A stretch of DNA of 43,071 bases from Lutibacter sp. (GTDB lineage: Bacteria > Bacteroidota > Bacteroidia > Flavobacteriales > Flavobacteriaceae): NCBI RefSeq assembly GCF_013139515.1, contig NZ_WTAR01000034.1:1-43071 (forward strand). The letters run 5' to 3'. Below, in pieces: positions 14,156 through 42,761 of the stretch. Under the pieces are notes generated by a model, which saw nothing but the letters and a program-made list of their open reading frames with translations, did not search any database and had not been told where the DNA came from. The position numbers were made by a program, and so were the translations under genes. Each line of letters opens with the position of its first letter. Position 1 is the first letter of the stretch.

Positions 14156-15427
14156 ATGAAAGAAAACTTACTTCAATTTATTTGGAAACTTAAACTGTTT
14201 TCATCTAAAAAAATGCGTATCACTAAAGGTAAATCTATTGAAATTATTTCAGTTGGAACTGAAAATTTGAATTCTGGTCCCGATTTTTTAAATGCTAAAA
14301 TTAGAATTAACAATCAACTTTGGGCTGGAAATGTTGAAATTCATATCAATTCATCAGATTGGTACGTACATAATCATGAAATAGATGAGCGTTATGATGC
14401 GGTTATTTTACATGTAGTTTGGGAACATGATATTGAAATTTTTAGGAAAGCAAATTTAGAAATTCCAACGTTAGAACTTAAAAATTATATTTCAAAAAAT
14501 GTATTGTATAAGCACTCACAACTTTTTTCAAAAGCTAAAAAATGGATTTATTGTGAAAATGATGTTACCGCAGTAGATTCATTTATTGTAAATCATTGGT
14601 TAGATCGTTTATATTTTGATAGGTTAGAGCAAAAAGCTATCCAAATTAAACAACTTTTGGCAAAAACTAATAATAATTGGGAGGCTACTTTATTTGTTTT
14701 GTTAGCCAAAAGTTTTGGTTTAAAAATTAATGCAGATGCATTTATAAATTTTGCTAATTCGTTTGATTTTTCATTAGTTAGAAAAGTTTCATCAAACAAA
14801 GAACAATTAGAAGCATTGTTTTTTGGACAAGCAGGTTTATTATCAAATAATCATGAATCGGAACATTTTAGGAAATTAAGACAGGAATATGATTATTTAA
14901 AGTTGAAGTTTAAGTTAACTCCAATTTCAACAGGACAGGTTCAATTTTTTAGATTGCGCCCAAATAATTTTCCAACTATTCGTTTATCGCAATTGGCTTC
15001 TTTATATAATTTACACCAAAGTTTATTTTCAAAAATAATAGAACTGAATACCATTGAAGAGTTTTATGAGTTGTTTTCAGTTTCAACTTCAATTTTTTGG
15101 GAAACACATTATACGTTTAATAAAACATCTAAGCGTAGCATAAAAAAAATAACAAAACCATTTGTTGATTTGTTGTTGATTAATACAATTATTCCTTTGA
15201 AATTCATGTATTTAAAAAGCATGGGGAAAGATGATTTCAGCTCTGTAATTAAAATTATTGAGCAAATTAAACCAGAAAAAAACACTATAATTTCTAAGTT
15301 TAAAGAACTCAAAATTAATTCATCAAACGCACTTCAAACACAATCTTTATTACAACTAAAAAATGAATATTGTAATAAACAACGTTGTTTGCAATGTTCA
15401 ATTGGTAAGGAATTACTTAAAAATTAA
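14156..15427 (+). CDS. DUF2851 family protein
   Basis: A 423-residue soluble protein from the ATG at 14156 (MKENLLQFIWKLKLF). An ATG at 14138 overlaps a possible -7 box (TACTTTTA, 14131-14138). The conserved N-terminal part reads NSGPDFLNAKIRINNQ, AGNVEIHINSSDWYVHNHE and YDAVILHVVWEHD. Its D43 and E61/H63 are spaced as in PD-(D/E)XK-type nuclease cores, which is only a hint. The C terminus has three closely spaced cysteines (CNKQRCLQC). Function is unknown. It is convergent with the small GGQ protein, with only 2 bases between the stops. Confidence 0.85.
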   Translation: MKENLLQFIWKLKLFSSKKMRITKGKSIEIISVGTENLNSGPDFLNAKIRINNQLWAGNVEIHINSSDWYVHNHEIDERYDAVILHVVWEHDIEIFRKANLEIPTLELKNYISKNVLYKHSQLFSKAKKWIYCENDVTAVDSFIVNHWLDRLYFDRLEQKAIQIKQLLAKTNNNWEATLFVLLAKSFGLKINADAFINFANSFDFSLVRKVSSNKEQLEALFFGQAGLLSNNHESEHFRKLRQEYDYLKLKFKLTPISTGQVQFFRLRPNNFPTIRLSQLASLYNLHQSLFSKIIELNTIEEFYELFSVSTSIFWETHYTFNKTSKRSIKKITKPFVDLLLINTIIPLKFMYLKSMGKDDFSSVIKIIEQIKPEKNTIISKFKELKINSSNALQTQSLLQLKNEYCNKQRCLQCSIGKELLKN

Positions 15428-15429
15428 GT

Positions 15430-15849
15430 TTATGATTTGTTAGAATTATAAAAATCTTTTACCCAAGCAACCATTTGATTTTCGGTTAATAGTTTTGAAT
15501 TAGAAACGCCTTTTAATTTTTTTGCTAATTGCATATTGTTTTTAATTTCTTTTTCAAAAATATTTTTCATTTTTGAAGGACCAAATAGCACCAATGAGTT
15601 GCAAGTTTCAACCTCTTTGAAAAGGTTTTTTATAAATTGATTGGTTTGCTCGAGCTTACGGTTTAGTTTATTTTTTTCATAAGTCAAATATTGACCTCCA
15701 AATCGGCCAAATTTTTTAGATTCTCCAGCTACACGTTCTCGAGTCTCAATGTTAGATTCAATAATTTTTACGTTGTGGTTATTATTGGAGAGTTTAATAA
15801 TAACAGCTTGTTTAGTGTCAATCCAAATTCCAATATTTCTTTCCATCAT
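15430..15849 (-). CDS. Small eRF1 domain-2-like protein with GGQ motif
   Basis: A 139-residue soluble protein. Start options are ATG at 15849 and 15846; a further ATG at 15870 is less likely because NIGIWIDTK should lie near the start. The strand IGIWIDTKQAVIIKL leads to SKKFGRFGGQYLTYEKNK (GGQ at 51-53, bases 15699-15691), a long basic helix and then SLVLFGPSKMKNIFEKEI. This order follows the middle domain of eRF1/aRF1 (IVID..., KKHGRGGQS, long helix, LVLAGSADFKTEL). It is related to the single-domain bacterial homologues sometimes called translational machinery proteins. In release factors the GGQ glutamine promotes peptidyl-tRNA hydrolysis. No stop-codon-reading or ribosome-binding domain is attached. 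A ribosome-rescue or peptidyl-tRNA role is inferred. Confidence 0.8.
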   Translation of the reverse strand: MMERNIGIWIDTKQAVIIKLSNNNHNVKIIESNIETRERVAGESKKFGRFGGQYLTYEKNKLNRKLEQTNQFIKNLFKEVETCNSLVLFGPSKMKNIFEKEIKNNMQLAKKLKGVSNSKLLTENQMVAWVKDFYNSNKS

Positions 15850-42461: not shown

Positions 42462-42761
42462 ATGAAAGTAAACGTACAGTCTGTAAATTTTAATGCCGAT
42501 GCAAGTCTTATTGAATTTGTTGAAAAAAAAATAAATAGTTTAGAAAAATTTTATGACAAAATAGTTGATTCAGAAGTGTTTTTAAGAGTTCAGCAAACAA
42601 GTGATAAAGAAAATAAATTTGTAGACATTAAATTAAATATACCAGGGAATGATTTGGTTGTGAAAAAACAATGTAAAACTTTTGAGGAAGGTGTTATGCA
42701 GGCAGCGGATTCGTTGAAAAGACAGTTGACAAAAAAGAAGGAAAAAATAAGAGTGAAATAA
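42462..42761 (+). CDS. hpf: Ribosome hibernation-promoting factor (short HPF/RaiA family)
   Basis: A 99-residue protein with the beta-alpha-beta-beta-beta-alpha pattern of HPF/YfiA: VQSVNFNADASLIEFVEKKI, LEKFYDKIVDSEVFLRV and the basic C-terminal helix ADSLKRQLTKKKEKIRVK. It binds between the A and P sites of the 30S subunit and stores inactive ribosomes in stationary phase. The long-form dimerisation domain is absent. It is cotranscribed with xerC and precedes a tRNA cluster. Confidence 0.92.
   Translation: MKVNVQSVNFNADASLIEFVEKKINSLEKFYDKIVDSEVFLRVQQTSDKENKFVDIKLNIPGNDLVVKKQCKTFEEGVMQAADSLKRQLTKKKEKIRVK

Follow-up and report, generated by a model that had tools for sequence, protein, structure and literature searches.

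The locus

The window analysed here is a stretch of 43,071 nucleotides from Lutibacter sp. (contig NZ_WTAR01000034.1), within an assembly of 2.83 Mb in 157 contigs. Its minus strand carries a small open reading frame, 15849..15430 with its stop, which encodes a protein (here P0001) resembling the middle domain of the release factor eRF1 (Table 1). An earlier note on this DNA had proposed a 139-residue frame at this place without giving its strand. The frame is real, and 139 is the length counted from the first of two adjacent ATG codons; of these two positions its relatives have methionine just at the second, which suggests a protein of 138 amino acids. The closest relatives found are Lutibacter records, and the earlier note was right to speak of a flavobacterium.

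Upstream, on the same strand and 153 bp away, lies an acyl-CoA dehydrogenase-like gene that closes a run of three genes. P0001 is flanked on one side by what we take to be fatty-acid genes and on the other by an unrelated convergent ORF; the names used for ORFs of the window (acyl-CoA dehydrogenase, thiolase, FadB-like, nitroreductase, M20, DUF2851) are likewise our assumptions. The gap to the upstream gene holds a terminator-like stem, one of two such sites in 671 bases scanned, where shuffled sequences predict 0.1. Since this stem separates the two ORFs, P0001 probably has a transcript of its own.

Both flanking genes, the acyl-CoA dehydrogenase-like gene and the convergent ORF, are conserved. 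In several relatives a gene for a metallo-beta-lactamase fold, sometimes with a further large gene, stands between the P0001 homologue and the convergent ORF. Here, only 2 bp separate the 3' end of P0001 from that ORF (15427-15430), so those intervening genes are missing. A search for an operon partner in Lutibacter found the metallo-beta-lactamase-fold gene, next downstream in several relatives, to be absent from the window.

Table 1. Positions, within the window, of P0001, its parts and two further features
Feature	Position	Strand	Basis or remark
P0001, stand-alone eRF1-middle-domain-like protein	15430..15849	-	139 codons plus stop; likely true start 15846
W9-x-D11-x-x-x-A15 signature, end of strand 1	15805..15825	-	alignment A2
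Loop KKFGRFGGQ, residues 45-53	15691..15717	-	sequence
GGQ, residues 51-53	15691..15699	-	sequence
Long basic helix after the loop	15607..15699	-	model residues 51-81
F89-G90-P91, end of strand 4	15577..15585	-	model and alignment
Terminator-like stem between the upstream acyl-CoA dehydrogenase-like ORF and P0001	15944..15974	-	13 pairs, 4 of them G-C, T-rich tail
HPF/RaiA-type hibernation factor	42468-42752	+	PF02482, E 2.4e-17

Predicted fold and homology

The AlphaFold model of P0001, built with an alignment of 20 rows, has a mean pLDDT of 84 and a pTM of 0.74. Its elements follow the order b-b-b-loop-long helix-b-a-b-a, so that the predicted model contains the long loop between strand 3 and the next helix that characterises the aeRF1 superfamily. 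This loop is the weakest part of the model, with a mean pLDDT of about 50 over residues 41-50 and of 68 over residues 51-60.

Used as a query in Foldseek, the model gives 31 matches at E<=1e-3, the best at 6.5e-7. As far as their titles tell (rows 1, 3, 9, 16 and 30 do not name the factor), all are structures of eRF1, aRF1, Pelota or Balon. The middle domain of human eRF1 alone (2hst) is covered at TM 0.60/0.61. The eRF1/aRF1 middle-domain fold claimed in the earlier note is therefore backed by model and structure search together, and the loop is placed as is the catalytic loop of eRF1. The segments on which that claim had been based, IWID (residues 8-11), the long helix and SLVLFGP (residues 85-91), are all present. 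The suggested check by structure prediction also came out in its favour: GGQ is neither buried nor misplaced in the model; it comes after strand 3 and before the long helix, on the border of the least confident stretch. The protein is, as was said, free-standing; its 139 codons leave out the N and C domains, and with them any domain for reading codons or binding ribosomes.

Relatives were aligned and counted in a set of 70 of 94 distinct proteins, mostly near-copies being dropped. W9, D11, A15 and G90 are invariant in all 70 rows of alignment A2.

Sequence searches with P0001 alone pass no cut-off of Pfam or NCBIfam. PF03464 (eRF1 domain 2) does not match P0001, nor anything in its own genome at E<=0.01. 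The best bacterial model is PF18854, baeRF_family10 (12.7 bits, E 0.15), far below its cut-off of 27.1 bits. Other names that single-sequence searches of Pfam, NCBIfam and the PDB returned (torovirus spike, alpha-glucosidase, DNA polymerase beta, gp41-5) were set aside as mostly at chance level. PHROGs offered no informative family for P0001, and a plasmid search gave one match, in Pseudanabaena, at 28.7%.

The relatives do match, below threshold, the models that the fold would lead one to expect: eRF1_2 in 6 of 70 rows at E<=0.01 (best 4.1e-4), baeRF_family10 in 4 of 70 at the same limit (best 3.5e-4), pelota in 5 of 70 (best 1.2e-4), and the NCBI ribosome-hibernation-factor model in one of 70 (E 0.0026). 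An unrelated model, that of phenylalanyl-tRNA ligase (pheT), is matched by four of the 70 rows with a best E of 1.3e-4, as good as pelota, so such weak matches are not specific by E-value alone. When the A2 profile is compared with three-domain family-10 proteins, their middle domain is picked out at E 4.8e-4, although with a probability of only 32%; the controls (a reversed one and six unrelated neighbour families) do no better than 0.021. The narrower alignment A1 gives 0.008 against 0.024 for its control, a small contrast. Profile searches of PDB sequences place eRF1 and Pelota at E 0.08-0.92, with unrelated chains alongside at similar E. No single sequence match being significant, the claim of homology rests on structure and on many weak matches. 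To go by the predicted fold, P0001 belongs to the middle-domain superfamily of aeRF1 (eRF1/Pelota/Balon) as a protein of one domain, of the stand-alone baeRF kind.

At the loop, a HMMER alignment to a eukaryotic eRF1 chain, weak overall (E 0.41), is ungapped. With respect to eRF1 KKHGRGGQ the two GGQs are then offset by one residue, and this residue is the extra phenylalanine that had been described before GGQ. The bacterial GGQ domain of RF1, RF2 and ArfB (PF00472) does not match P0001, whose fold matches eRF1-type structures instead; its separateness from the RF1/RF2 domain, also noted earlier, is thus upheld. Three PF00472 matches do occur in the genome, each on another contig.

The loop within Lutibacter

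The basic loop KKFGRFGGQ, ending in GGQ, is indeed found at residues 45-53 of P0001. The earlier note had taken this GGQ to be the intact catalytic triad of peptide release, a reading that is weak, since a conserved triad is not supported. Among 33 distinct proteins of the same genus type, 13 are without GGQ: it is present in 20, the others having DGH (4), GNQ (3), GGH (3), GSQ (1), EGH (1) and a GPQ type (1). The alignment of homologues that had been proposed as a check gives GGQ in 20 of 33 in the genus and in 0 of 95 loci in other genera of the family, an outcome that the note itself had named as refuting its reading. The invariant GGQ of class-1 release factors (eRF1/aRF1) is therefore not a trait of these proteins. 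The states aligned with GGQ elsewhere include GPQ, GDQ, GNQ, GSQ, GKQ, GTQ, VAQ, GGH, DGH and EGH, or the loop is lost.

What precedes GGQ is more constant. In 27 Lutibacter-type rows drawn from the 33 proteins, K45, K46, G48, R49 and F50 are invariant (27/27), while G51 and G52 are each retained in 23 rows and Q53 in 21. Four codons are used at the invariant G48 and four at R49 in these rows. In a tree of 91 proteins, the seven included proteins with H for Q (the xGH proteins) share a clade of eight rows (99/76) with one GGQ row, and this clade is nested among other GGQ rows. Five of the eight proteins with H for Q have D or E for G51, which suggests that G51 and Q act together.

That tree holds 91 of the 94 proteins (L007, which contains an N, L016, a near-copy, and L104, which has a deletion, were left out); a second holds 46 picked by hand. 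The deep forks are poorly resolved in both.

The loop outside Lutibacter and its length

Outside Lutibacter, 95 flavobacterial loci were counted, these being the family matches at E<=1e-12 minus those of four genomes. Three of the four (G191, G160 and G187, with loci L135, L139 and L140) were excluded because the models for universal stress proteins (USP), ATP-cone and beta-CASP had been built from them; the fourth, G353, is in alignment A2 only. Two genomes contribute two loci each. Across the 95, Q is present in 88 and G51 in 85. The residue between them is P in 75 and D in 4, with T, A, K or H in others. The nearest outside group, joined at a node of 94/95 in the 46-protein tree, is a GRFG[DKT]Q set whose members belong to other flavobacterial genera and to two metagenome bins of Bacteroidales type. 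The idea that KKxGR...GGQ was inherited unchanged from an eRF1 ancestor was considered and rejected, as the closest relatives show GRFGDQ, GRFGKQ or SRFGTQ, and GPQ is the form of most of the rest. In f32, another family of the phylum, the loop is of a different kind and ends in VAQ in all 26 distinct rows fetched. Thus, three loop types retain a glutamine at the same place.

The length of the loop goes with the glutamine. Measured from S32 to G90, the length is 59 in all rows of the Lutibacter type (27/27), the Bacteroidales type (2/2) and f32 (14/14), and 58-59 in 5 of 5 GPQ rows; it is thus 58-59 in all 48 rows of the four clades with a loop Q, or its H derivative. In clades without a loop Q it is 39-51 in 15 of 16 rows (51, 39-48 and 47-50 in three clades; L086 has 54). 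Six exceptional rows (f22, f18b, L058) measure 59-62, and five of these are without Q. Over the 95 loci, by a slightly different measure, Q-bearing rows span 74-79 and the seven rows without Q have 66, 66, 66, 73, 74, 78 and 82. A loop of nearly fixed length where Q is present, and mostly shorter where it is not, probably serves a function for which the glutamine is important. Burroughs and Aravind give a fixed loop length with Q as a sign of active loops (PMC6514570).

As far as the alignments go, then, the conserved feature is G-x-Q in a loop of almost fixed length, and not GGQ. eRF1, of course, demands a strict GGQ, and substitutions in GGQ inactivate the human factor. Residues P, D or N at the second position, and H at the third, do not fit this demand and leave classical release chemistry unfavoured. 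The chemistry of the loop is probably not of the classical eRF1 type.

A finding that points the other way comes from ten three-domain family-10 proteins of the phylum. One of them, L118, has GGQ directly before the same helix, and eight are without G-x-Q. L117 and L118, close relatives of three-domain length, have GTGH and GGGQ in the same loop, the alternation of Q and H that is also seen inside Lutibacter. GGQ therefore appears, and changes to H, in at least two branches of the superfamily.

Distribution and selection

A match is present in 33 of 36 other genomes of the genus and absent from three. Two of the 33 stand apart: that of G025 is partial and contains two stops, and that of G004 is of another, GPQ type. 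In a sample of the family, a homologue occurs in 100 of 397 genomes and 79 of 237 genera at E<=1e-12; in a sample of the phylum, profile matches occur in 84 of 395 genomes at E<=0.001. None of 23 genomes from other families matched the single P0001 sequence at E<=1e-3.

Ten pairs were tried for dN/dS. Nine of these, two including an xGH protein, gave 0.085-0.174, and the tenth was saturated. Fifteen pairs among six of the eight xGH proteins gave 0.13-0.24. Both the GGQ and the xGH forms are under purifying selection, the pairs being drawn from these forms without GNQ and GSQ proteins.

The partial match (L116, G025:C13:282715-282843) is a remnant of 43 residues, interrupted by two in-frame stops; the gene next to it is again the acyl-CoA dehydrogenase-like one. 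This remnant in one genome of the genus suggests that a gene of the P0001 type is dispensable. The GPQ-type copy (L115, on G004:C4) has 32% identity and replaces the Lutibacter type in a genome labelled as the same genus; the contig neighbours differ (L145), so misbinning or transfer is possible.

Gene neighbourhoods

Most flavobacterial relatives have a stress neighbourhood. A USP frame lies within 2 kb in 71 of the 95 loci, and 69 loci have one on the same strand no more than 300 bp away; in none is it on the opposite strand only. An ATP-cone frame is within 2 kb in 52 and a beta-CASP frame in 50, and in 47 all three are. (Distances were taken between frames that run from stop to stop and so somewhat exceed the genes in length.) Pfam confirmed the names of these neighbour families on example loci.

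The Lutibacter type is placed elsewhere. Loci L001-L020 (18 of Lutibacter type, two of Bacteroidales type) have no USP, ATP-cone, beta-CASP or HPF frame in flanks searched up to 6 kb, several of them shorter. Six GRF-group loci have no USP, ATP-cone or beta-CASP frame either. These absences are useful as an internal control, limited by the shortness of several flanks.

Linkage to a hibernation factor (HPF) was tested and is rare, with HPF within 5 kb in 6 of 95 loci. HPF is present in all 50 genomes searched; it stands beside the homologue only in G316, and within 15 kb of it in G281, G450 and G191. The HPF/RaiA-type gene of the window, the sole one found in the genome of P0001, is 26.6 kb from it.

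Some other arrangements deserve mention. In L135, L140 and their relatives (for example L135 2424-7735), a recurring cluster surrounds a GPQ protein, with several USPs, a protein that joins an ATP-cone to an Mrr-like nuclease domain, and a beta-CASP/RMMBL protein. Relatives without the loop (L132, L133, L134) accompany genes for KaiC-like ATPases, confirmed by Pfam in L132 and by look in the others; a divergent further HPF is near loop-less relatives in three genomes, adjacent, at 8.5 kb and at 14 kb. In a genome of the same class and another family (G207), the homologue adjoins a ferritin-like gene.

Likeness to known systems

With domain 2 of eRF1/aRF1 (PF03464) P0001 shares the fold, the position of the loop and, in Lutibacter, the letters KKxGR and GGQ. 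Unlike eRF1/aRF1, it has no N domain to read stop codons and no C domain, and its GGQ is not invariant.

Balon (NF052287) likewise combines an aeRF1-type middle domain and a stress-gene neighbourhood with the lack of a conserved GGQ. Its middle domain binds the peptidyl-transferase centre (PTC) without GGQ, and its genes are in stress operons (PMC10901736). Balon, however, has three domains, with contacts to the decoding centre and EF-Tu, whereas P0001 is the middle domain only.

The stand-alone families of the baeRF-1 clade (PMC6514570) also consist of a single RNase H-fold domain of the aeRF1 superfamily in bacteria and also have stress or dormancy neighbours. Here too a single aeRF1-type domain occurs alongside RF1 and RF2, if the two full-length PF00472 frames of the genome are taken as these factors. 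There are differences. Versions that lost their flanking domains are said to be usually without the loop glutamine (PMC6514570), whereas 88 of the 95 loci outside Lutibacter have it, and the main neighbours here are USP, ATP-cone and beta-CASP instead of HPF. The P0001 family could be one of these stand-alone families.

The same authors report a conserved Q in baeRF_family10, and accept non-GGQ catalytic loops with a conserved Q (GxuQ) for the Vms1/VLRF-1 clade (PMC6514570). Ten examples of PF18854 above cut-off in this phylum have frames of 392-608 amino acids, about three domains, where P0001 has one. The bVLRF1 model had no match in the genome of P0001, a result that is uninformative because control genomes gave none either. 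Open-licence PMC literature on baeRF, Balon and eRF1-like bacterial factors yielded no study of this single-domain family.

Proposed function and its alternatives

P0001 resembles a factor that binds ribosomes in times of stress more than it does a release factor in miniature. On balance we lean to the view that it is a stand-alone baeRF-type protein that docks near the PTC of the large ribosomal subunit under stress. Here, stress or slow growth would lead the domain to dock in the A site of the large subunit, near the PTC, by its basic loop and its long basic helix, as the middle domain of Balon does. The docked domain would then occupy or protect this site, blocking or shielding resting ribosomes. 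Its G-x-Q tip might contact RNA or peptidyl-tRNA, with no obligatory hydrolysis of the eRF1 type. We infer the binding to ribosomes, the docking site, the absence of hydrolysis and the role under stress in Lutibacter itself, whose copy lies outside the stress cluster. That Q can be lost is indicated by the eight xGH proteins, with purifying selection in the six compared. Against docking stands the single domain, without the N and C domains that aid the docking of Balon, as do the place of the Lutibacter copies outside the stress cluster, the rarity of HPF nearby, the GGQ of L118 and the imperfect separation by loop length.

The family, uncharacterised and tied mostly to USPs and in about half of cases to ATP-cone and beta-CASP, may be a further component of ribosome dormancy. 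A domain of 138 residues that is naturally free of codon-reading and GTPase-binding parts would also allow the chemistry and docking of the aeRF1 middle domain to be tested alone, with natural variants to hand: GGQ, GNQ, GSQ, GGH and DGH in Lutibacter and, elsewhere in the family, GPQ and GDQ.

The high conservation of Q and G over the 95 loci could, of course, equally mean catalysis. P0001 might then be an active peptidyl-tRNA hydrolase, a minimal rescue or release factor whose GGQ or G-x-Q places water at the ester bond, in a stalled 70S ribosome or a split 50S subunit with peptidyl-tRNA, like factors of the Vms1 type. This role is possible and not favoured; we would give it a distinctly lower chance than docking. 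Fold and loop position agree with eRF1, GGQ is perfect in 20 of the 33 proteins of the genus type and recurs in the same loop of one of the ten three-domain family-10 proteins, and a Q kept at near-fixed loop length is the pattern by which Burroughs and Aravind call families active (PMC6514570). The middle residue, however, is P in 75 of the 95 loci, with D, T, A, K or H elsewhere among them, and N or S in four Lutibacter-type proteins; H stands for Q in eight more, with purifying selection in the six tested; and the tract K-K-[FY]-G-R-F is more constrained than GGQ. The genome has, moreover, two full-length RF-1-family frames of 361 and 368 codons (presumably RF1 and RF2), one of 134 codons that is ArfB-like by length only, and tmRNA. 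With these there is no need for another rescue factor, though one may exist; some versions, those with GGQ above all, might also hydrolyse peptidyl-tRNA.

A variant confined to Lutibacter, which we regard as doubtful, is that a stress-linked, free-standing domain turned its older G-x-Q loop into a full KKxGRFGGQ, left the stress island and became a one-domain release or rescue factor with eRF1-type chemistry, and then lost Q in one sub-clade. If true, this would provide a natural on/off series within one genus.

It is rather improbable that P0001 is an RNA-binding or regulatory protein of the stress cluster that does not act at the PTC, for example by binding tRNA or mRNA or as a partner of the USPs, the ATP-cone protein and the ribonuclease-like protein of beta-CASP type. 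Such a role would suit the recurrent neighbours (71, 52 and 50 of 95 loci within 2 kb, all three in 47) and the rarity of HPF linkage. Yet the closest solved folds named in Foldseek titles act in the ribosomal A site, and the Lutibacter copies lie outside the cluster, so that clustering with these genes is not required there.

An RNase H-like nuclease, with an active site that includes D11 (where strand 1 ends) and the acidic helix residue 58, is very unlikely. D11 is found in 70 of 70 A2 rows and 93 of 95 other loci, and residue 58 is D or E in 67 of 70 and 93 of 95. A third conserved acid is missing, however: what is conserved at the end of strand 4 is F-G-P. Foldseek, moreover, ranks the best matches of RNase H-type nuclease kind (Yqgf, Argonaute) at E 7.5e-3 to 9.7e-3, whereas the best aeRF1-type chain reaches 6.5e-7.

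Finally, a chance GGQ in a decaying ORF, for which one might cite the remnant in G025, the three of 36 genomes of the genus without a match and the drift of GGQ, is hardly credible and is refuted by conservation: 33 of 36 genomes of the genus, dN/dS of 0.085-0.174 in nine pairs, and 100 of 397 genomes of the family.
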